Origin: a virus
Length of the DNA: 47,601 nucleotides
IMG/VR virus record: IMGVR_UViG_3300025313_000030
Span: 1 to 47,601 of that record
Reading direction: 5' to 3' (one strand)
The translations under genes were made by a program, and so were the position numbers. Shown here piece after piece: positions 2,361 through 37,707 of this stretch (the first letter of the stretch is position 1; the number at the start of each line of letters is the position of its first letter). The notes beneath the pieces were generated by a model that saw nothing but the letters and a program-made list of their open reading frames with translations, was not told the origin of the DNA and made no database searches.

Positions 2361-3257
2361 TTACGTAAGTTTCTGGTCGGACAGAACAAGCCACTTAGTG
2401 CCATTCCAATTCATATCGAGGAAACTGCCCGAAATGAGCGTAACGGCGGTAGCGGCAACAAGCGGTGGACTAGCCAGGTATTCGGCCGACAGGTTCGGAG
2501 TGAACCCATTGGCAAAACTTACCTTCCAGCCAACGCCCGTAAGCGCACCGTCAACTTCGATAATCTTGCGCTGGCCGATAAACGTGCCCGCGCCGATAAC
2601 GGCGCTGCCAACCACTGACGATCCCGCCTCGGACGATATGAACGTTACCCCGTGATAGGTAATAGTAACGCCTGCAATCGCAGTCGCCAACATCGGTATG
2701 TACTGGCGTCCGCCGGAGGGCAGGCCGGTCATTAGCTCGGCCATAATCAGAGCCGAAGCGGTAGTAGCCGCCTCAAGCACCATAGCCGAACCCTCGCCCG
2801 GAAGCCCGTACTTCTGCCACTGACCGTTAATGTACGGAGCAGTAGTATGAGCCGCGCCAACCGAGTTCGTGCAGACACCAAAGGTCAGCATAGTACCCGC
2901 ATTAGCACTGGCTACACTGGCGTCCCGATGGTCAACGGTAATTGCCGCGTGAATCTGGCAAATACTGCCCGGCTCGTGTATTAAAATCCAGTTCGGGCCG
3001 ACTACCCCGTCGGAAACCTTGTCGATAGCGCCTGCAAAGTGCAGGTTATTTTCAAACGACGGGTCTTCGACTTGAACGCGCCGAGCGTCGCACCAGTCGG
3101 TAGCGGTAGCGCCGGACAAACTTTCACTTTCAGCCGTTATATCAACGGCGTCGAAGTTGTAGTTGACCGCGTAGCCCGCGTTGGCCGTACCGGTGCGATA
3201 GAAAACCCTTCTGGTTTTTGTGAGGACTCCGCCCCCACCAACAATACCCTGAGACAT
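2361..3257 (-). CDS. Putative capsid-associated (decoration-like) virion protein
   Basis: 298 residues, Gly/Ala/Thr/Ser/Val rich with few charged residues and predicted all-beta, which is typical of virion surface proteins. The start is supported by AGGAG 8 nt upstream. It follows the major capsid gene directly, the usual place for head decoration or head-completion proteins. I do not recognise a named family. The role is inferred from position and composition. It ends at the terminator that separates head genes from the sugar cassette. Confidence 0.6.
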   Translation of the reverse strand: MSQGIVGGGGVLTKTRRVFYRTGTANAGYAVNYNFDAVDITAESESLSGATATDWCDARRVQVEDPSFENNLHFAGAIDKVSDGVVGPNWILIHEPGSICQIHAAITVDHRDASVASANAGTMLTFGVCTNSVGAAHTTAPYINGQWQKYGLPGEGSAMVLEAATTASALIMAELMTGLPSGGRQYIPMLATAIAGVTITYHGVTFISSEAGSSVVGSAVIGAGTFIGQRKIIEVDGALTGVGWKVSFANGFTPNLSAEYLASPPLVAATAVTLISGSFLDMNWNGTKWLVLSDQKLT

Positions 3258-4558: not shown

Positions 4559-5569
4559 TTACCAGAGGTCGAGCTTTTTGCCCGTTTCGTCCATAGCGGA
4601 CATTGCCTTTTCGTCGGAGTTAGCGAATTTCTGAGTCGTTTTCTGGCCGGTGGGCCGGGCGGTGAACTTCGTCTTTCGACGATTCAACTTGTCCACTACG
4701 TCCCGTTCCTTCCTTTCAGGGGCCGCGCCCCTGCCGTACAGTCCGCGAAAGCTATTTGCAGCCTTCGCAAGACTATCCTCAAACGACCCGCCGGCTCGCC
4801 TCTGCCAGCGAACGGCCATATCGTAAACGTCGCCCCTAAGGGCCTTCTGGTTCGTCGATAGTGCAGCCGTCCTGCCCAATTCGGGAAATTCGGCTACCTT
4901 ATCGAATAGACTATCAATATACGATACTCTCCGCGCCTGCTCGGCTGCCTGCGTAGTTTGCAAGCCACCCCGAACGGCGAAAAGCTCTCTCTTCAATTCA
5001 TTATTAGCGTCCACGAGCTTATTCACGGTCGATTCCATTCCTTTAATGGTTTTCCCCGCGTCAGTATCGAGTTCGCTCACGTCAACGGAGATACGATCCA
5101 TCAACTTGGGTATTTCAGGCTGCTTGGGAGGGGCTTTTTCAGGCACAGGGCCGATTAAACTGCCCGCCTGAAGCCACTCGTAAGACCTTGCCATCACCTC
5201 TAAAGCGTCCGGATGATTCTCCGATAAGTCGATTATCGTCTCGTCCGTGAGACCGTAGGCTCGACCGGCCCTAACAAGATTGTCGGGAACAGGCTCGGTT
5301 TCGTCCTCAACGCCCGCAGGCTCGGACAACTCTTTTTGGCCTTTTTCCTCGGCAGTTTCTTCTTTTTCGTCTTTCGTCCCTTCGTCCCCTCGCCCTTCGT
5401 CCCCTCGTCCCTCGTCCTTCTCTTTCTCCGCCAGTTTTTCCAAGTATTCGTCGCCCTTCTTCTCCTCGGCGTAGGCTTCATCTTTAACGTCCGCGCGCGG
5501 CTCGCCCATAATCTCGTTGTACTTACTCTCAAGACTTGCGGACATTACATCATCTAATACTTCAGCCAT
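4559..5569 (-). CDS. Scaffolding protein
   Basis: 336 residues, very rich in Glu, Lys and Asp, with long predicted coiled coil. Residues about 30-90 are almost entirely charged and contain a short tandem repeat of the type GRGDE. The C-terminus is basic (RRKTKFTARP...). An acidic helical protein just upstream of the major capsid gene is the usual phage scaffold arrangement. The basic tail would fit the capsid-binding end. No protease motif was seen, so scaffold removal may not need a phage protease. Confidence 0.75.
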   Translation of the reverse strand: MAEVLDDVMSASLESKYNEIMGEPRADVKDEAYAEEKKGDEYLEKLAEKEKDEGRGDEGRGDEGTKDEKEETAEEKGQKELSEPAGVEDETEPVPDNLVRAGRAYGLTDETIIDLSENHPDALEVMARSYEWLQAGSLIGPVPEKAPPKQPEIPKLMDRISVDVSELDTDAGKTIKGMESTVNKLVDANNELKRELFAVRGGLQTTQAAEQARRVSYIDSLFDKVAEFPELGRTAALSTNQKALRGDVYDMAVRWQRRAGGSFEDSLAKAANSFRGLYGRGAAPERKERDVVDKLNRRKTKFTARPTGQKTTQKFANSDEKAMSAMDETGKKLDLW

Positions 5570-7128: not shown

Positions 7129-7291
7129 TGTTAATCTCCTTTGCAATTACGTCCCAAGCGCGTTTCAACTTGTCCTTATCTTCGTCCGTTTCGGGCGGAA
7201 AGTCCCGATACAACATCTTCAAGCCTATGTGCCTCGCGTTATGATACTTTCGCACGAATCCGATGAAAGTTTCCAGTTTTGGCCTTCTCAT
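6965..7291 (-). CDS. Hypothetical protein overlapping the portal stop and nested with a small phage gene
   Basis: 108 residues. ATG at 7291 overlaps the portal TGA (ATGA), suggesting coupled translation. The first 55 residues look like a normal helical protein (FIGFVRKYHNARHIGLKMLYRDFPP, then an acidic helix). The last 50 are low-complexity Glu/Gly/Gln and lie opposite the coding frame of the gene at 6961-7128. The N-terminal half is not explained by any other gene, so a product is likely. The length of its true C-terminus is uncertain. Confidence 0.5.
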   Translation of the reverse strand: MRRPKLETFIGFVRKYHNARHIGLKMLYRDFPPETDEDKDKLKRAWDVIAKEINNAPNGEGREGESQNGGTLRQGEGGESVLRQPEREENNGDALDPQEKEEVVSTKG

Positions 7292-9057
7292 AATTCCGCC
7301 GTAGTCTTGCCCTGCACCCTGTTCTGCTGCTGAAGCATATTGTTCATGTTACTGCCCTGATTTTCCGGCATACGCTGGTCGGTCATACCGACTTTGGGAC
7401 TGCCCCCACCTGGTTGGTATGGATTCATTCCCGGCTGCTGCATCGCGGGCATAACGCTCTGATACCAGTCGCCCATATTGGTAACGTTCAGATACCTTGC
7501 AAACTCTTTCGCAAGTTCAGGCACGTTCAAAACAGTGCCCTGCTGGGCCGCTATTTGAGCGGTGGGCAGGATGTAGCCCGTGACAAACTGAGACAGTTTC
7601 TGATACTTCACGTCCGGGTTCATTCTCATCATTGAGTACGGTTCAATATCGAAGGTATAATCGAAGAAGTCGCCTTCTTTAGCCGACTCCGAATACTCGA
7701 CCTGCAAATCGACGCCCATAACCCGCTTTATCAACGGCAGCACGATAAGCGGATCAGTCCACAAGAACCACGCAAGTTTCTTAATAATGCTCTTGGTCGT
7801 TTCGTACATCTGGTGAACCATATCGTCTATTTCGCGGGCCGCGTTAGCCTGGAGCATCTGCTCCTGGCCGAGCGTCTTAGCCATAACGGACTTGCCGCCG
7901 GTAATATCCATATTCGGGCCGGTCTTGGCGAATTCGGACAGTAAGAACCCCACGAACGGAAACGACTGCTCGTTGAACCCGCCAAACGTAAATTCCTTCA
8001 CGCTCTCAGGAGTAGCGACCCCTACCATGTCGCCGTGCCCGGCGTCCTTGAGCCTCTTAGCGTCCTCGTCGGCCCCAGTCTGATAGACTCCGATGGTCTT
8101 CTCCCGCATGCACTGGTCTCTCATCTTGCATATTATCTGATTGATAATCTTATTAAGGTCCAGCCAGGTATAAACGGGCGGAATTGGAATAATACTATCG
8201 GGAAAGTATCTATAGCCCAACACGTCAAACGGTCCGCCCTCCGGCCCGTCCCAATCGACGGTTCTCATAATCTTATCGCCCTGCCCGTCCGGCGGAATAG
8301 TAATTACCACGTCCTCCATGGGTATCCAAATATCCATCATCTCGACGGACGGGTACAATTCCCGAAACTCCATCAGCGCCGTCTCGTCCTTAGCGATCGT
8401 TTCGGGCCGGGTATCGTCGCCGTACAGCCGCAAATCGGGCTTGAGCCGGTCGAAGTTCTTATATAAGCCGGAATCCCTAATGTACCATAAAGGAAGCCTG
8501 TACTTGTGGCCCTCAAGCCGCATCTCCTGCCTGTTCCGGGCGGCTACGTCGCCGATGTAATCGTCGAAGTCGATAATATCAGAATAAGGCTGGCCAACGT
8601 CGTGCAGATGCCCCAGGATTTCCACCTGATGCGAATGCATTATACCCGTCTTAACAATGCCCATCCCGAACAAACTCTGTATTACCATCGGCCGCAGCGT
8701 ATTCTCGGCGAACTTTATCTCGTCGAACAGGTGCGCAAGAGCCAATTCGAGCGTCCTCGAAAAGGACGCTACGTTGGGATTGTTAAGACCCATCCTCGGC
8801 ATTATCATGGCGCGGGGGTTCTTAGAGACTAAGAAGGGCGCAATTATCTGAACGGCCCTGTCTATCAAGTTAAGCGGCTGGGGCGTCCGGGCGTCTTTGC
8901 GCCCGCCCTGATACCAGTCGTTCGCATAGTGGACGAGCATGCGCTTGCGGCAGTCGCGCATATCCCTGGTATAACTCTGCCAGGCCGAAACAGCCGCCTG
9001 AAGCCGCGCGGGAAACGGCCTTTTCTTATCCGGCTCGTCTATTCTATTCTTAACCAT
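7288..9057 (-). CDS. Portal protein
   Basis: 589 residues from ATG at 9057. Residues about 40-130 (LIDRAVQIIAPFLVSKNPRAMI...) and the long central part with DWDGPEGGPFDVLGYRYFPDS and PPVYTWLDLNKIINQIICKMRDQ resemble P22-type/podoviral portals: a wing of beta strands, then long stem and clip helices. The C-terminus is Gln/Asn/Met/Gly rich and probably disordered. The gene follows the large terminase and is separated from it only by a 70-bp heptamer array. No normal SD precedes the ATG. The frame stays open upstream into the array through TTG codons, so an N-terminal extension of repeats is possible. Confidence 0.8.
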   Translation of the reverse strand: MVKNRIDEPDKKRPFPARLQAAVSAWQSYTRDMRDCRKRMLVHYANDWYQGGRKDARTPQPLNLIDRAVQIIAPFLVSKNPRAMIMPRMGLNNPNVASFSRTLELALAHLFDEIKFAENTLRPMVIQSLFGMGIVKTGIMHSHQVEILGHLHDVGQPYSDIIDFDDYIGDVAARNRQEMRLEGHKYRLPLWYIRDSGLYKNFDRLKPDLRLYGDDTRPETIAKDETALMEFRELYPSVEMMDIWIPMEDVVITIPPDGQGDKIMRTVDWDGPEGGPFDVLGYRYFPDSIIPIPPVYTWLDLNKIINQIICKMRDQCMREKTIGVYQTGADEDAKRLKDAGHGDMVGVATPESVKEFTFGGFNEQSFPFVGFLLSEFAKTGPNMDITGGKSVMAKTLGQEQMLQANAAREIDDMVHQMYETTKSIIKKLAWFLWTDPLIVLPLIKRVMGVDLQVEYSESAKEGDFFDYTFDIEPYSMMRMNPDVKYQKLSQFVTGYILPTAQIAAQQGTVLNVPELAKEFARYLNVTNMGDWYQSVMPAMQQPGMNPYQPGGGSPKVGMTDQRMPENQGSNMNNMLQQQNRVQGKTTAEL

Positions 9058-9059
9058 AT

Positions 9060-9129
9060 CAAGACCCAAGACCCAAGACCCAAGACTCAAGACCCAAGAC
9101 TCAAGACCCAAGACTCAAGACTCAAGACT
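9060..9129. repeat. Ten-copy heptanucleotide tandem repeat between terminase and portal genes
   Basis: Ten uninterrupted copies of CAAGACY (plus strand) fill 9060-9129. The last base is C, C, C, T, C, T, C, T, T, T in order. The terminase stop (9132-9134) and the portal ATG (9057-9055) each lie 2 nt outside it, so the array is the whole spacer. It contains TTG codons on the minus strand that could act as starts for the portal frame. Confidence 0.95.
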
Positions 9130-9131
9130 CC

Positions 9132-11126
9132 CTATTTCTCTGCCAGCAGCCAGGGCTCGTCCGCAGTTTCCTTAACTTTTTCCGCCTGCCGCCACCGCCA
9201 GGCGAGACTCGCAACGTTCTGCTCGGCCTCTAAAACCAGCGCCTTGGGCTGGTAAGTCAGAGCCAATACGTACAAGCCGTCTGGAATGACCCTGTCGCCG
9301 TGCGCCAGCCTCGCGCCACTCGTATCGTCCATGGTCATTGTGCTGTTGATGTCCCCATTCTCGAAGAAAACGTAGTCTTCGTATTCCCTGAGCGTTTCCT
9401 CGTCGGGTACGATAAGAGCGGGGCGAAGGTTCTTTTTCAGGCCGTTGCCGAGCGCAGCCCTGAGACCTAAAAGCAGGTCATACTTAATCTCGCGGTTACT
9501 AAACCAGCCGCGCCGAGTCTTCTTCTTGCGCACTTCGGCCCGCTCGTCCCGCTCATGGTAGATAAACGTATAGTCCAACTGCACGATTCGGCTCTCGAAA
9601 GCCTGGCCTGGGCCCGTACCCTCCCAAATCAGGTACGGGCGCCCGGAAGAACCGCCTACCCAATGGCACAAGGCCACTACGTATTCGGCAAACTCTTCAG
9701 GAGCAATAAACGGACTAACGAATATGCCTACTAATTGCGACTCGTTAACGCTATAGACCTTAGCAACCGAATTCGACGCCCCCGTTCCCATCGCAACGTC
9801 GCAAGATACGACGTAGTTATATCTCTGAACAGGACGAAGGTCGGGCAACTCGCCCCACCAGGACAGTCTCCTCCGCCCGCCGTCGGGCAGGAACCGAATA
9901 TCGGACAGTCCGTACCGCTTGTGAGTCTCATAAACAACGTCCCCTAAATAGTCGGACTTCCGGGCGAATTGCTGACGCTGAAGTGAGATAACCTCCGGGT
10001 CGAAGAACATATCGCCCGCCCCTACGGGACTGCAATCGATATTCTGGGCCACGTCCCTTCTGTCCCGGCGGGCCACCTCCCTATCGTACCAGGGACTGCG
10101 AAGATTGCCCTTCCCGTCCGCAACCATTCCGAACTCGGCCTCTGGATACCGCAAGAACATCGAATTCTCCAAATCCGAATAGCGGCTAACCTCAGAATTA
10201 AAGGCAATCAGTGGAAACCGGCTCTTGTAATAGTCAACGTCCTTAATTGCCACCTTGTTCAGGTCGGGACTAAAGTATAGACCCGCGTTCTTCACCGGAT
10301 TAACGTGCCAGGGCAGCTTAACTACCTTCACCTTCCCGCCCGTGCACAACCTGGCAAACGGGTGGCCCCGCCCGTAAAAGTGCGTGCTGTTGTATATCAC
10401 GCAGTTGGTAGTATCGCTTAAAGTCTCCCGAATACTCTGAGCTATCTTAGGGTCTATGCGCCCAAACTCGTCTATCATTACCGACAGTCTCCTGTCCCCG
10501 GCCCCGAAACTCTCGTTCGTGCTCTCGCCGTCTATCACACTGCCATTGCCTAAATTAACTACGTGTAAATGCTGCTTCTCTATCCTGGGCCGCAGCCATA
10601 AAGGCAGCGTCGCTATCGTGTATAATATCTTGTAAAATAAGCACTTATGGTCGCCGAGTACCTTAGAACCCCTAATCTCAGTGGCCTTATCAACTAACTC
10701 CTCCTTCCGCGAACCCACCAGAAAACCGCTCTCGCCCGCTATTAAAAAGTACAGGGTGTAAAACTTGATAATAAGCTCAGTAGCGCCCTCGTCCCTGCTC
10801 TTCTCGAATAGTAAGTCCCGCCCACCGGCTATAGCACCCCTCAAGGCATCCACCGCCCCTATCTGCGCAGGCCTTAAAATGAACGGACTATTCCGCTCGA
10901 AAGGCGGCTTACGCGGATCGTAACCCCAAAATAAAGTGTCGAAAGCAATCTGCGGGTGCGCATAGCACATCTCCAGAAACGCCCGCCTTGCACCCGTATC
11001 AGAGCCTAAAACCCTGTGCAAATCGGCCCTAAATAGCAGGTTCGCGCTCTGCTCCCTCGGTATCTTCGACCAGAACTCCGCCGGAGTCTCGATTTTGGAT
11101 AGTGCTTCCAACTCTCTCCCTATCAT
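9132..11126 (-). CDS. terL: Terminase large subunit
   Basis: 664 residues. The ATPase part has the variant Walker A segment KSRDEGAT (residues 109-116) and Walker B LSVMIDE (214-220). The C-terminal nuclease half has the first acidic motif in YVVSCDVAMGTGAS, a later EGTGPGQ segment and a final HGDRVIPDGLYVLAL helix resembling the conserved HxDxxxAxxxA motif. It motors DNA into the prohead through the portal and cuts the concatemer. The start at 11126 overlaps the small-subunit gene by 98 nt. A later start is possible, but the first 60 residues look coding. Confidence 0.92.
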   Translation of the reverse strand: MIGRELEALSKIETPAEFWSKIPREQSANLLFRADLHRVLGSDTGARRAFLEMCYAHPQIAFDTLFWGYDPRKPPFERNSPFILRPAQIGAVDALRGAIAGGRDLLFEKSRDEGATELIIKFYTLYFLIAGESGFLVGSRKEELVDKATEIRGSKVLGDHKCLFYKILYTIATLPLWLRPRIEKQHLHVVNLGNGSVIDGESTNESFGAGDRRLSVMIDEFGRIDPKIAQSIRETLSDTTNCVIYNSTHFYGRGHPFARLCTGGKVKVVKLPWHVNPVKNAGLYFSPDLNKVAIKDVDYYKSRFPLIAFNSEVSRYSDLENSMFLRYPEAEFGMVADGKGNLRSPWYDREVARRDRRDVAQNIDCSPVGAGDMFFDPEVISLQRQQFARKSDYLGDVVYETHKRYGLSDIRFLPDGGRRRLSWWGELPDLRPVQRYNYVVSCDVAMGTGASNSVAKVYSVNESQLVGIFVSPFIAPEEFAEYVVALCHWVGGSSGRPYLIWEGTGPGQAFESRIVQLDYTFIYHERDERAEVRKKKTRRGWFSNREIKYDLLLGLRAALGNGLKKNLRPALIVPDEETLREYEDYVFFENGDINSTMTMDDTSGARLAHGDRVIPDGLYVLALTYQPKALVLEAEQNVASLAWRWRQAEKVKETADEPWLLAEK

Positions 11127-11667
11127 CCGCTATAATACTCAACTTGCCCGCCAACTTCCGTATCTCCTCAGCCTCTAACTCGCCCCGAACATCTAAATTC
11201 GCGCTTACACTCGTACTCTTAGTCTCAATAAACCGCGTGTTCTTAAACTGACCCTTACTCATATTTATCATTAAGAACATCAAAAGAGCCTCAGAAGGCT
11301 CACGAACCCGCGTCCAACTCTCCTCCCCTACCTGAACCCGCTTACCCTCAATAATCCTAAAACTACGCCTGCTCTCCACGTACTCGTAACCCACCGCGCT
11401 GCGCATCGCCTGAGCTACTAAAAACTTCACCGTGCTCTCCTGAGCATCCGCTATCGCCGCAGCAAACTCAGGATGTTCACGCAACCAGTTTGCTACCGTA
11501 GTCTCACTAACACCTAAAACGTAACCCAACTCGCTCCGAGTGAACCCGCAAGCAGTTAACTTCGCCGCTACACCAGGAAAATGAACCCTGTCATATAACG
11601 CCGAACTTCGATGAGCCCGCCGATTGTTTAACTTGCCATCTACCTGCAATATCTTGGGAAAATTCAC
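11029..11667 (-). CDS. terS: Terminase small subunit
   Basis: 212 residues. Residues about 38-72 form a helix-turn-helix of the terminase type (FTRSELGYVLGVSETTVANWLREHPEF), which would bind the packaging site. Helices for oligomer formation follow (PSEALLMFLMINMSKG). The C-terminal 60 residues are acidic and polar. The gene lies directly upstream of and overlapping the large subunit, as is standard. Recognition of the pac/cos site by this protein is inferred from the family. Confidence 0.82.
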   Translation of the reverse strand: MNFPKILQVDGKLNNRRAHRSSALYDRVHFPGVAAKLTACGFTRSELGYVLGVSETTVANWLREHPEFAAAIADAQESTVKFLVAQAMRSAVGYEYVESRRSFRIIEGKRVQVGEESWTRVREPSEALLMFLMINMSKGQFKNTRFIETKSTSVSANLDVRGELEAEEIRKLAGKLSIIADDRERVGSTIQNRDSGGVLVEDTEGAEREPAI

Positions 11668-15905: not shown

Positions 15906-16154
15906 TCATATTTTCCTGTAGAAGTACTGTTCGTGTTCTAACTCAGGCGGCCCGTCCACGCGCAAGTCAACCGGCCCGGCCGCCAAAGCCGCTTTGCAAC
16001 CATTCATTATGGCGTCACTTGGATTCATCCACAACAATTCCTTCTCCTTCTCACCGTAAATACCCATATAAAGACCCCACAATAAAATATCATTGCCTCT
16101 CTGCTCAGTCTCAACTTTTCCATGTATGTGACTAATACCTTTAATTTGCCTCAT
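15906..16154 (-). CDS. Hypothetical protein
   Basis: 82 residues, start overlapping the stop of the NinG-like gene by 4 nt. It contains a hydrophobic central strand (DILLWGLYMGIYG) and an aromatic C-terminus. No family recognised. The gene order suggests a role in recombination or DNA processing only by proximity. Confidence 0.5.
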   Translation of the reverse strand: MRQIKGISHIHGKVETEQRGNDILLWGLYMGIYGEKEKELLWMNPSDAIMNGCKAALAAGPVDLRVDGPPELEHEQYFYRKI

Positions 16155-16576
16155 AATTTCAGATACTCCTCCTCCAATTTATTATACTCACTCTTGTAAT
16201 ATAATTCATAACCTGCGATTGCTCGTGCGTCGTTCTTATTACACCGATGACGCAGCCATAACTCATTTATCGTTTCTTCGCCATATTTTCCCAGCATGAA
16301 TTTTCGGTAAGCCAAAGGATTGCCCTGCCGCCAAGCGTTACAACCTTTGCATTGTGCGTGGATGTTCCGCTCATCGAAATAAACCCCGCTCGACCCGCCT
16401 ATTCCCCGTGAGATAAAATGTCCGGCGTCACAATTCTTATTCCACGTTATTATCGTTCCGCAGGTACAACAAGCGACGTAACCAAAGGCAAAGGCAGGAT
16501 GCCGACAATGAAACTCCACCGCATCCCTCAAACGAATATATTTGGAGCACCAGACCCAAGCCCGTTTTTTTGTCAT
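16151..16576 (-). CDS. NinG/Rap-like recombination nuclease
   Basis: 141 residues from ATG at 16576 (AGGAG 10 nt upstream). CCTCGTIITW, then CDAGHFISRG, then YFDERNIHAQCKGCNAWRQGNPLAYRKFM match the NinG family: two Cys pairs framing an HNH-like core with DAGHF as catalytic part. NinG (Rap) proteins process recombination intermediates for phages using RecBCD-type or phage recombination. A truncated basic C-terminus follows. Its neighbours include Cas4-like and SSB-like genes of a recombination block. Confidence 0.75.
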   Translation of the reverse strand: MTKKRAWVWCSKYIRLRDAVEFHCRHPAFAFGYVACCTCGTIITWNKNCDAGHFISRGIGGSSGVYFDERNIHAQCKGCNAWRQGNPLAYRKFMLGKYGEETINELWLRHRCNKNDARAIAGYELYYKSEYNKLEEEYLKL

Positions 16577-16583
16577 TCGCCTC

Positions 16584-16610
16584 ATTCTCCTTATTCTCCT
16601 TATTCTCCTT
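16584..16610. repeat. Triplicated 9-bp unit carrying Shine-Dalgarno sequences
   Basis: Three exact copies of ATTCTCCTT (plus strand), read as AGGAGAAT repeats on the minus strand, occupy the spacer before the NinG-like start. It gives three consecutive SD sites. Only the last is at functional spacing. Confidence 0.85.
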
Positions 16611-16882
16611 TATGTTTTGCCATTCTTGCCCTTTCTCAATGCCGCCTTGACCAGCGCCGCCGCTTTTCGGTATTCTTCCGTGGCGCAAGTCCCGTGATCC
16701 GGTCCCGTTCCTTTCGGAAATTCGTCCTCGATGAACGGCCATATCGCTTCAAGGGCCGCATATAAGAGATCATACTCTTTCGCAATCAACCGCAATGAGG
16801 TTTTTTCCGCTTTATTGAGCGAACTCTCGTCGCCAATATCCCATAATGTATTAGCAATTGGTGTCTGAGGAGTGTATCCCAT
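16610..16882 (-). CDS. Hypothetical protein
   Basis: 90 residues, helical, with AGGAG SD upstream. It contains AEKTSLRLIAKEYDLLYAALEAIWPFIEDEF and a basic end. No family recognised. Small genes of this kind fill the space between replication genes. Confidence 0.55.
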   Translation of the reverse strand: MGYTPQTPIANTLWDIGDESSLNKAEKTSLRLIAKEYDLLYAALEAIWPFIEDEFPKGTGPDHGTCATEEYRKAAALVKAALRKGKNGKT

Positions 16883-23937: not shown

Positions 23938-24580
23938 TATTTTTGCTCCAAACGGCTATAATTTTCTGCTTCCAATTCTTCACGGGCTTGAGGTCCCGAT
24001 CCCGCCATACACCGTCGGCGGCGGAAGAATAATACTTGATAAATTCGGCGGCATCGACTTGGTAATGATTCTCCGCGCAATAAGCCTTAACTTCTTCAAG
24101 AGTCGGAGGCACAAAGGGCGAAGCCCGTTTTTTCTTTTTGTTCTCATTATTAGTCATTGTTCCATTGTTATTATTGTTGTTTGTGGTTAGTTGCTGGTTA
24201 GTTGCTGGTTGCTCGCTGGTTAGCCGTTGGTTAGTTGGTTGGTTAGTTACTTGGTTAGATTTATCATCGTAGTCTTGGTAAGTCTTGTAATTACAAATAC
24301 TTATGAGGCTATAAATGTTGGTTGTCTGGATGGTTATTTCGCCGGTTGATTTTAGCCTATCGAGGCAAGTGCGTAAGGACTGGCGCGAGATACCCGTTTG
24401 CACTTTTAGGCTTGTTTGGCTTGTAACCAGTTGGCCTTGTTCTACGACGATTCCCTGCCATTTTTTCGGCTTGTGGTTCGCCCTACGGATTAGATGTTGA
24501 AACAAGTGTGCCATATTGGAAGTCGTGTACCATTCCCACTCCTCTATCTGCCGCCAGTTACAAACCCATCCGCCCGTCAT
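23858..24580 (-). CDS. Replication initiator protein (winged-helix N-terminus)
   Basis: 240 residues. Residues about 40-95 form a winged helix (GQLVTSQTSLKVQTGISRQSLRTCLDRLKSTGEITI), the usual DNA-binding start of phage initiators. A Asn/Gln/Thr linker (NQVTNQPTNQ...NNNNNN) follows, then a C-terminal helical domain with PPTLEEVKAYC.E and WKQKIIAVW. Its linker DNA is an iteron-like array (24185-24258), as in lambda O, whose gene holds the origin. The downstream loader gene supports lambda O/P-type initiation. Confidence 0.75.
   Translation of the reverse strand: MTGGWVCNWRQIEEWEWYTTSNMAHLFQHLIRRANHKPKKWQGIVVEQGQLVTSQTSLKVQTGISRQSLRTCLDRLKSTGEITIQTTNIYSLISICNYKTYQDYDDKSNQVTNQPTNQRLTSEQPATNQQLTTNNNNNNGTMTNNENKKKKRASPFVPPTLEEVKAYCAENHYQVDAAEFIKYYSSAADGVWRDRDLKPVKNWKQKIIAVWSKNNGRTTKTRSNTGFDYENEPGSIEIRA
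24185..24258. repeat. Iteron-like array inside the initiator gene (candidate origin)
   Basis: Six copies of GGTTAG lie at 24185, 24196, 24218, 24229, 24241 and 24253, spaced 11-12 bp apart (one 22-bp gap that holds a GGTTGC variant). They encode the polar linker of the initiator. Regular spacing near one helical turn fits initiator-binding iterons. Confidence 0.6.
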
Positions 24581-37239: not shown

Positions 37240-37707
37240 ATGCAAAAACGAACTTGTACTCATTGCCACACAATCAAATCATTGTCCGAATTTTATATTC
37301 AAAAAGACCGCCCATCAGGTTATAAAAGCTGGTGTAAACGATGCGCTAATGCTTCGGTGGCTACCTACAGGCAAACTGCGCAGGGCAAAAAAATTGTCTA
37401 CGAAAACGTCCGCCGCTACAGTCATAGCAAAAAAGGCTTGGAAGCGGCGCACCGCTACAGACATAGCCAAAAAGGCTTGGAAACAGCGCGCCACTACTGG
37501 CACAAAAATTATACTCCCCAAATAGGACGCGCCCGAAATGCAGTTATGCGTGCTATAGCCACTCACAAAATACCTCCGGCTAAAACCTTACGATGTTTCG
37601 ATTGCCACGCACAGGCAATGGACTACCATCATTGGCGCGGATATGATAAAATCAATCTTCTTAACGTCATTCCTCTTTGCCGCAAATGTCATCGAAACGC
37701 TGTCTAA
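37240..37707 (+). CDS. HNH endonuclease with N-terminal zinc ribbon (own promoter)
   Basis: 155 residues. N-terminus CTHCHTIKSLSEFY...CKRC is the shared zinc ribbon, then basic helix repeats, then RCFDCHAQAMDYHHWRGYDKINLLNVIPLCRKCHR, a complete HNH core (DYHHW). It is on the opposite strand to the surrounding tail genes, between nozzle N-terminal segment and the gene at 37709, with its own promoter and no SD. This is a typical freestanding mobile gene. Confidence 0.85.
   Translation: MQKRTCTHCHTIKSLSEFYIQKDRPSGYKSWCKRCANASVATYRQTAQGKKIVYENVRRYSHSKKGLEAAHRYRHSQKGLETARHYWHKNYTPQIGRARNAVMRAIATHKIPPAKTLRCFDCHAQAMDYHHWRGYDKINLLNVIPLCRKCHRNAV

Follow-up and report, generated by a model that had tools for sequence, protein, structure and literature searches.

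A ten-unit heptanucleotide array fills the spacer between the large terminase gene and a putative portal gene of a phage

The DNA analysed here, called the window below, comprises the 47601 bases of an IMG/VR virus record. The large terminase gene, TerL (9132..11126, minus strand, 664 aa), is an open reading frame that matched annotated phage terminases by tblastn (34% over 233 aa, E = 4e-25), and its upstream neighbour on the same strand (11029..11667) is the small terminase gene TerS (phrog_309 terminase small subunit, E=3.3e-13). On the other side of the array lies an open reading frame of 589 aa, the putative portal gene (7288..9057, minus strand). The initial annotation had named the two genes flanking the array terminase and portal. 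The first name is backed by the terminase matches; no match to the second gene was found in Pfam, PHROGs or the phage records, and its name therefore rests on its position after TerL, its size and its co-conservation.

The whole spacer between TerL and the portal gene is taken up by a tandem array. Read directly on the plus strand, positions 9060-9129 consist of ten perfect CAAGACY units (70 bases) in which Y is CCCTCTCTTT, and the order from 9060 to 9129 is three CAAGACC, then CAAGACT, CAAGACC, CAAGACT, CAAGACC and three CAAGACT. On the coding (minus) strand the TerL stop codon TAG (9134-9132) is followed by GG, ten RGTCTTG units, AT and the portal ATG (9057-9055), which makes the array intergenic and places it 2 nt from each gene. 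The coordinates, the count of ten units and the 2-nt gaps given in the initial annotation proved exact when the sequence and its flanks were read. In TRF, period 14 scored better for the array (130) than period 7 (110). Matches to CAAGACYCAAGACY with at most two mismatches number 10 in the window, nine of them exact and in the array, against 0.63 expected, and none of 100 shuffles reached ten. A chance origin is thereby excluded: both TRF and the shuffles show 7-bp tandem units in a run longer than chance expects. No second or inverted copy of the CAAGACY array was found within the 47601-base window.

Three contigs are nearly or fully identical to the window. L019 and L012 match it at 99.96% and 99.98% identity over 4.8 and 4.4 kb, respectively, with no gaps, and both carry the ten units letter for letter, with the Y variants in identical order. 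The third, L139, is 100% identical and starts at 8864, without spanning the array. Among the three same-virus contigs that span it (the window, L012 and L019), no variation in array length was observed.

The closest relative, L138, is 88% identical to the window in the portal protein and 85-86% in TerL. Its TerL-portal spacer measures 32 nt and is built of GGGACGA/GGGACGAA-type units that extend back into the final codons of TerL. The initial annotation had proposed a search of relatives for other repeat numbers; L012 and L019 yielded none, and L138 yielded a different repeat. Another 17 relatives, less close than L138 and including some near-duplicates, were compared at the junction, and none of the 17 has a repeat there. 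Eleven have a portal start (ATGGC, GTGGC or TTGGC) within the 3' end of TerL, the two genes sharing 13 nt; in three distant ones the overlap is 1 nt (TAATG), in two the genes abut, and in the last, L179, a plain spacer of 34 nt contains a Shine-Dalgarno (SD) sequence. Period-7 arrays are rare in the wider TerL/portal family, with 2 of 46 TRF rows in 608 kb. As judged from these alignments, neither the sequence nor the copy number of the spacer is conserved, and the portal ATG is.

A stretch across the portal start, GATATGGTTAAGA, is common to the window and L138, and the alignment of the two portal proteins begins at the methionine of ATG 9057. For these reasons ATG 9057 is favoured over the TTG at 9111, which is in frame with the portal gene and is one of the TTG codons that the initial annotation noted in the array and that do occur on the portal strand. 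The annotation was also right that an SD sequence is missing, in that no strong one is present: pairing with the anti-SD reaches -4.4 kcal/mol for the portal gene, compared with about -8 to -12 kcal/mol for those window genes that are led by an SD, among them the MCP and scaffold-like genes. The value is -5.0 kcal/mol for the L138 portal gene, and -8.9 and -11.1 kcal/mol for the overlapping relatives L140 and L021. Weak pairing is also seen elsewhere, in the overlapping relative L174 (-0.7) and in TerL of the window (-2.2). The portal most likely starts at ATG 9057, either by reinitiation after TerL or by weak direct initiation.

Other repeats occur in the window. A GGGACGA-type array with units of 7 or 8 bp (5373..5417, minus strand) was located by TRF, by alignment with L138 and by BLAST of the L138 spacer, with which it shares the unit type. 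It lies inside the scaffold-like open reading frame 4559-5569, where its super-period of 15 bp (7+8) preserves the reading frame, and its longer counterpart in L138 (5772-5822) is again in a scaffold-like frame. On the minus strand, tandem copies of AAGGAGAAT at 16575-16610 form a repeated Shine-Dalgarno-like array that ends just before the ATG of the open reading frame 16151-16585; the copies also fall inside the overlapping frame 16437-16742. An 11-bp unit repeated 6.6 times (24184-24258) and a 39-bp unit repeated 2.2 times (37413-37497) both overlap open reading frames.

Heptamer arrays were also found in other phages. Seven of 19 period-7 arrays at phage loci end within 10 nt of an ATG, against 8.6% expected, but four of these seven come from L014 and several others are at contig ends. 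In L014, a 37-kb phage contig, many gene junctions between 3696 and 9000 are built as two heptamer arrays in inverted orientation on either side of a short loop rich in T; several heptamer sequences occur among them, and the arrays end 0-7 nt from ATG codons. Two phage contigs, L018 (array at 3041-3118) and L011 (array at 3094-3172), carry similar genes (MQKF-V/I-DR...) whose ATG is preceded, at a distance of 6-7 nt, by a heptamer array. CAAGACC arrays are present at both ends of a single 71-kb phage contig (IMGVR 3300049857_000028; L015 1-117 and L017 13804-13912), which may be the two parts of a single long array where the assembly was interrupted.

In cellular genomes the CAAGACY unit also occurs as tandem arrays. 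At least 110 five-unit stretches were found in species genomes, and the matches listed include Acidobacteriota, Planctomycetota, Verrucomicrobiota, Bacteroidota, a Methylococcales symbiont, Acidimicrobiaceae and others. Fifteen heptamer-bearing genomes hold 3 to 342 three-unit matches each and 0 to 1 of the reversed control, a comparison that says little about the letters because these genomes were picked for carrying the heptamer. No GGGACGA heptamer was found in the same 15 genomes. Among unselected genomes from the phyla of G001, G013 and G012, the heptamer was present in 0/244, 0/248 and 3/236, and the reversed control in about 8/244, 0/248 and 2/236, respectively. Since unselected genomes hold the heptamer overall no more often than its reversed control, its letters are not special, and each genome seems to have its own heptamers. 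The statement of the initial annotation that such heptamers are known from bacterial genomes thus holds for the class; its use as a hint at the host does not, because a heptamer scattered sporadically across phyla does not point to a host. Naming a host from the heptamer was accordingly given up, since the unselected genomes of the three phyla show it, overall, as rarely as the reversed control or more rarely. Portal relatives were sought for the same purpose in two phyla (285 and 294 genomes); no match was returned, an empty result that shows nothing.

Of the 236 tandem arrays found around the bacterial copies, 156 have a 7-bp period; these loci had been chosen for containing one such array. 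With genes taken as simple open-frame calls and no gene finder, here and in the phage counts, 34 of 172 bacterial arrays (20%) have a stop codon within 10 nt, against 2.6% by random placement, and no enrichment was seen near ATG codons (7% against 8.8%). A separate count near stop codons gave a similar result. In the acidobacterial MAG SZAS-13 (L149, L150, L151, L152, L154, L155 and L156), AGTCTTG/CAAGACT arrays are often paired in inverted orientation, with tens to about 300 bp between the two.

Several explanations of the window array have to be weighed. Short-read assembly is error-prone at tandem repeats, and several other viral heptamer matches sit at contig ends, so that an assembly artefact had to be considered. 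Two more contigs, from differently numbered data sets, contain the array between unique flanking sequences and differ from the window at only 1-2 positions over 4.4-4.8 kb; the artefact is largely refuted already, and we give it next to no credence. The initial annotation had suggested a contingency locus, in which a change in the number of units would alter portal start use or expression by phase variation. A tandem repeat of ten units next to a start codon is a typical slippage substrate. However, all three spanning contigs have ten identical units, which are of mixed C/T type, and the portal ATG, which L138 conserves, comes after the array, so the unit number does not set the portal frame. 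The 7-bp period gives TTG codons in all three frames at any unit count. Moreover, on/off switching would bring no obvious benefit to a structural gene such as the putative portal, and we consider phase variation very unlikely. A DNA site for packaging (cos- or pac-like), also put forward in the initial annotation, or for another phage DNA-protein interaction would agree with the position of the array inside the packaging gene block. A packaging site would be expected to be conserved with the terminase, but the array is missing in the 17 relatives, L138 has another sequence there despite its TerL identity of 85-86%, and some bacterial chromosomes contain the heptamer by the dozen. The unconserved spacer and the conserved portal ATG together disfavour both a packaging site and frame control by repeat number, and a packaging or other DNA-protein site appears extremely improbable.

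A more serious alternative is that the array controls portal translation, either through an RNA hairpin that joins the TerL stop to the portal ATG or through binding of a protein such as S1. For RNA of the coding-strand array the predicted folding energy is -25 kcal/mol (z = -3.43), and its stem closes beside the stop and start codons, whereas the plus strand as RNA does not fold and, as DNA, neither strand folds well. The array ends 2 nt from an ATG that has no strong SD, and the share of phage arrays close to an ATG (7/19) points the same way. Most TAACTGA arrays of the BOGUAY genome stop a few nt short of a start codon, only about 10% of them with an SD, and a protein such as S1 was proposed to bind these heptamers just upstream of Beggiatoaceae start codons (PMC4679880). 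Against this, 27% of random heptamers repeated ten times fold equally well, which makes the folding weak evidence and weakens the hairpin as a proof of function. The hairpin consists mostly of G-U pairs between units and so needs no particular unit number. The L138 spacer, of other sequence, reaches -7 kcal/mol only, and bacterial arrays are not enriched beside ATG codons. The predicted hairpin is a possible effect of the array and does not amount to evidence of selection. We therefore consider translational control of the portal gene possible but unlikely, and the same holds for a regulatory role of the array in general.

The explanation we favour, and consider probable, is that a heptamer array grown by slippage fills a junction where a gene overlap was lost, and that it acts as a spacer and not as a switch. 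The 13-nt overlap of most relatives suggests that TerL and portal are translationally coupled there. Because the window and L138 both have a spacer and the common new portal start, the junction would have opened in the ancestor of these two lineages. The simplest history would be loss of the overlap in this ancestor and the subsequent appearance of a different heptamer array in each lineage, and this difference argues for seeding and growth by replication slippage over conservation of a site. Growth may often have proceeded in two-unit steps, as suggested by the 14-bp super-period, and would have been tolerated since no protein is harmed at a stop/start junction; the portal would still be translated from ATG 9057 in one of the two ways given above. 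Period 7 with the stronger period 14, the other heptamer in L138 and the bacterial period-7 arrays near stop codons count for slippage. The lack of copy-number difference among the same-virus contigs counts against it, as do the ability of the portal strand to form an RNA hairpin and the ATG-near phage arrays, which hint at a start-codon role although four of the seven are from one phage. It is conceivable, though we think it doubtful, that the gene junctions of some phages are made of interchangeable heptamer arrays, for which period and placement relative to a start or stop codon count and the letters do not, as the window and L138 or the inverted pairs of L014 might suggest.

As nothing more than tolerated slippage, the array would be a modest curiosity. 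It brings into a phage structural operon a class of repeats known from the chromosomes of bacteria, and the comparison with L138 reveals unrelated heptamer arrays at the same junction of two close relatives. Why bacterial tandem repeats prefer a unit of seven bases thereby becomes a question that can be tested in a small, fast-evolving genome.

We found no report of heptamer arrays in phages in the open-licence literature: a search for "heptamer repeats" with "phage" gave nothing relevant by title or abstract, and a text search for the array sequence itself returned one unrelated plant EST paper. According to Mrazek 2007, as cited in PMC4679880 and PMC4692102, heptanucleotides are the most abundant class of long SSRs in most bacterial genomes studied, and slippage was proposed. 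The window array is like these long SSRs in unit length, tandem layout and proposed slippage origin; as cited there, they are described for cellular genomes, whereas the window array lies at a phage gene junction. TAACTGA direct repeats are known from Beggiatoaceae, Cyanobacteria and Bacteroidetes (MacGregor 2015, PMC4679880, in which the words phage and virus are absent). Like the window array they are 7-bp direct repeats, mostly intergenic, and many lie one to a few nt before a start that lacks an SD, as the window array does (2 nt, -4.4 kcal/mol). They differ in sequence, the window unit being RGTCTTG, and the TAACTGA reference genome has 169 dispersed chromosomal sets of 2-6 units where the window has one array of its heptamer. 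The G-rich GGGNATC heptamers of Xanthomonas and Nostoc are intergenic, have 2-26 units and are enriched within 50 bp of a stop codon (Rehm 2015, PMC4692102). They share with the window array the 7-bp tandem arrangement, the intergenic place near a stop codon and a G-rich sense strand, but their preference for four units is tied to G-quadruplexes, whereas the window array has another sequence, with GGG on its coding strand in five units only and at uneven spacing. The window array resembles both the TAACTGA and the GGGNATC repeats in its location and its period, and it is a fresh instance, in a phage, of a repeat class known from bacteria.
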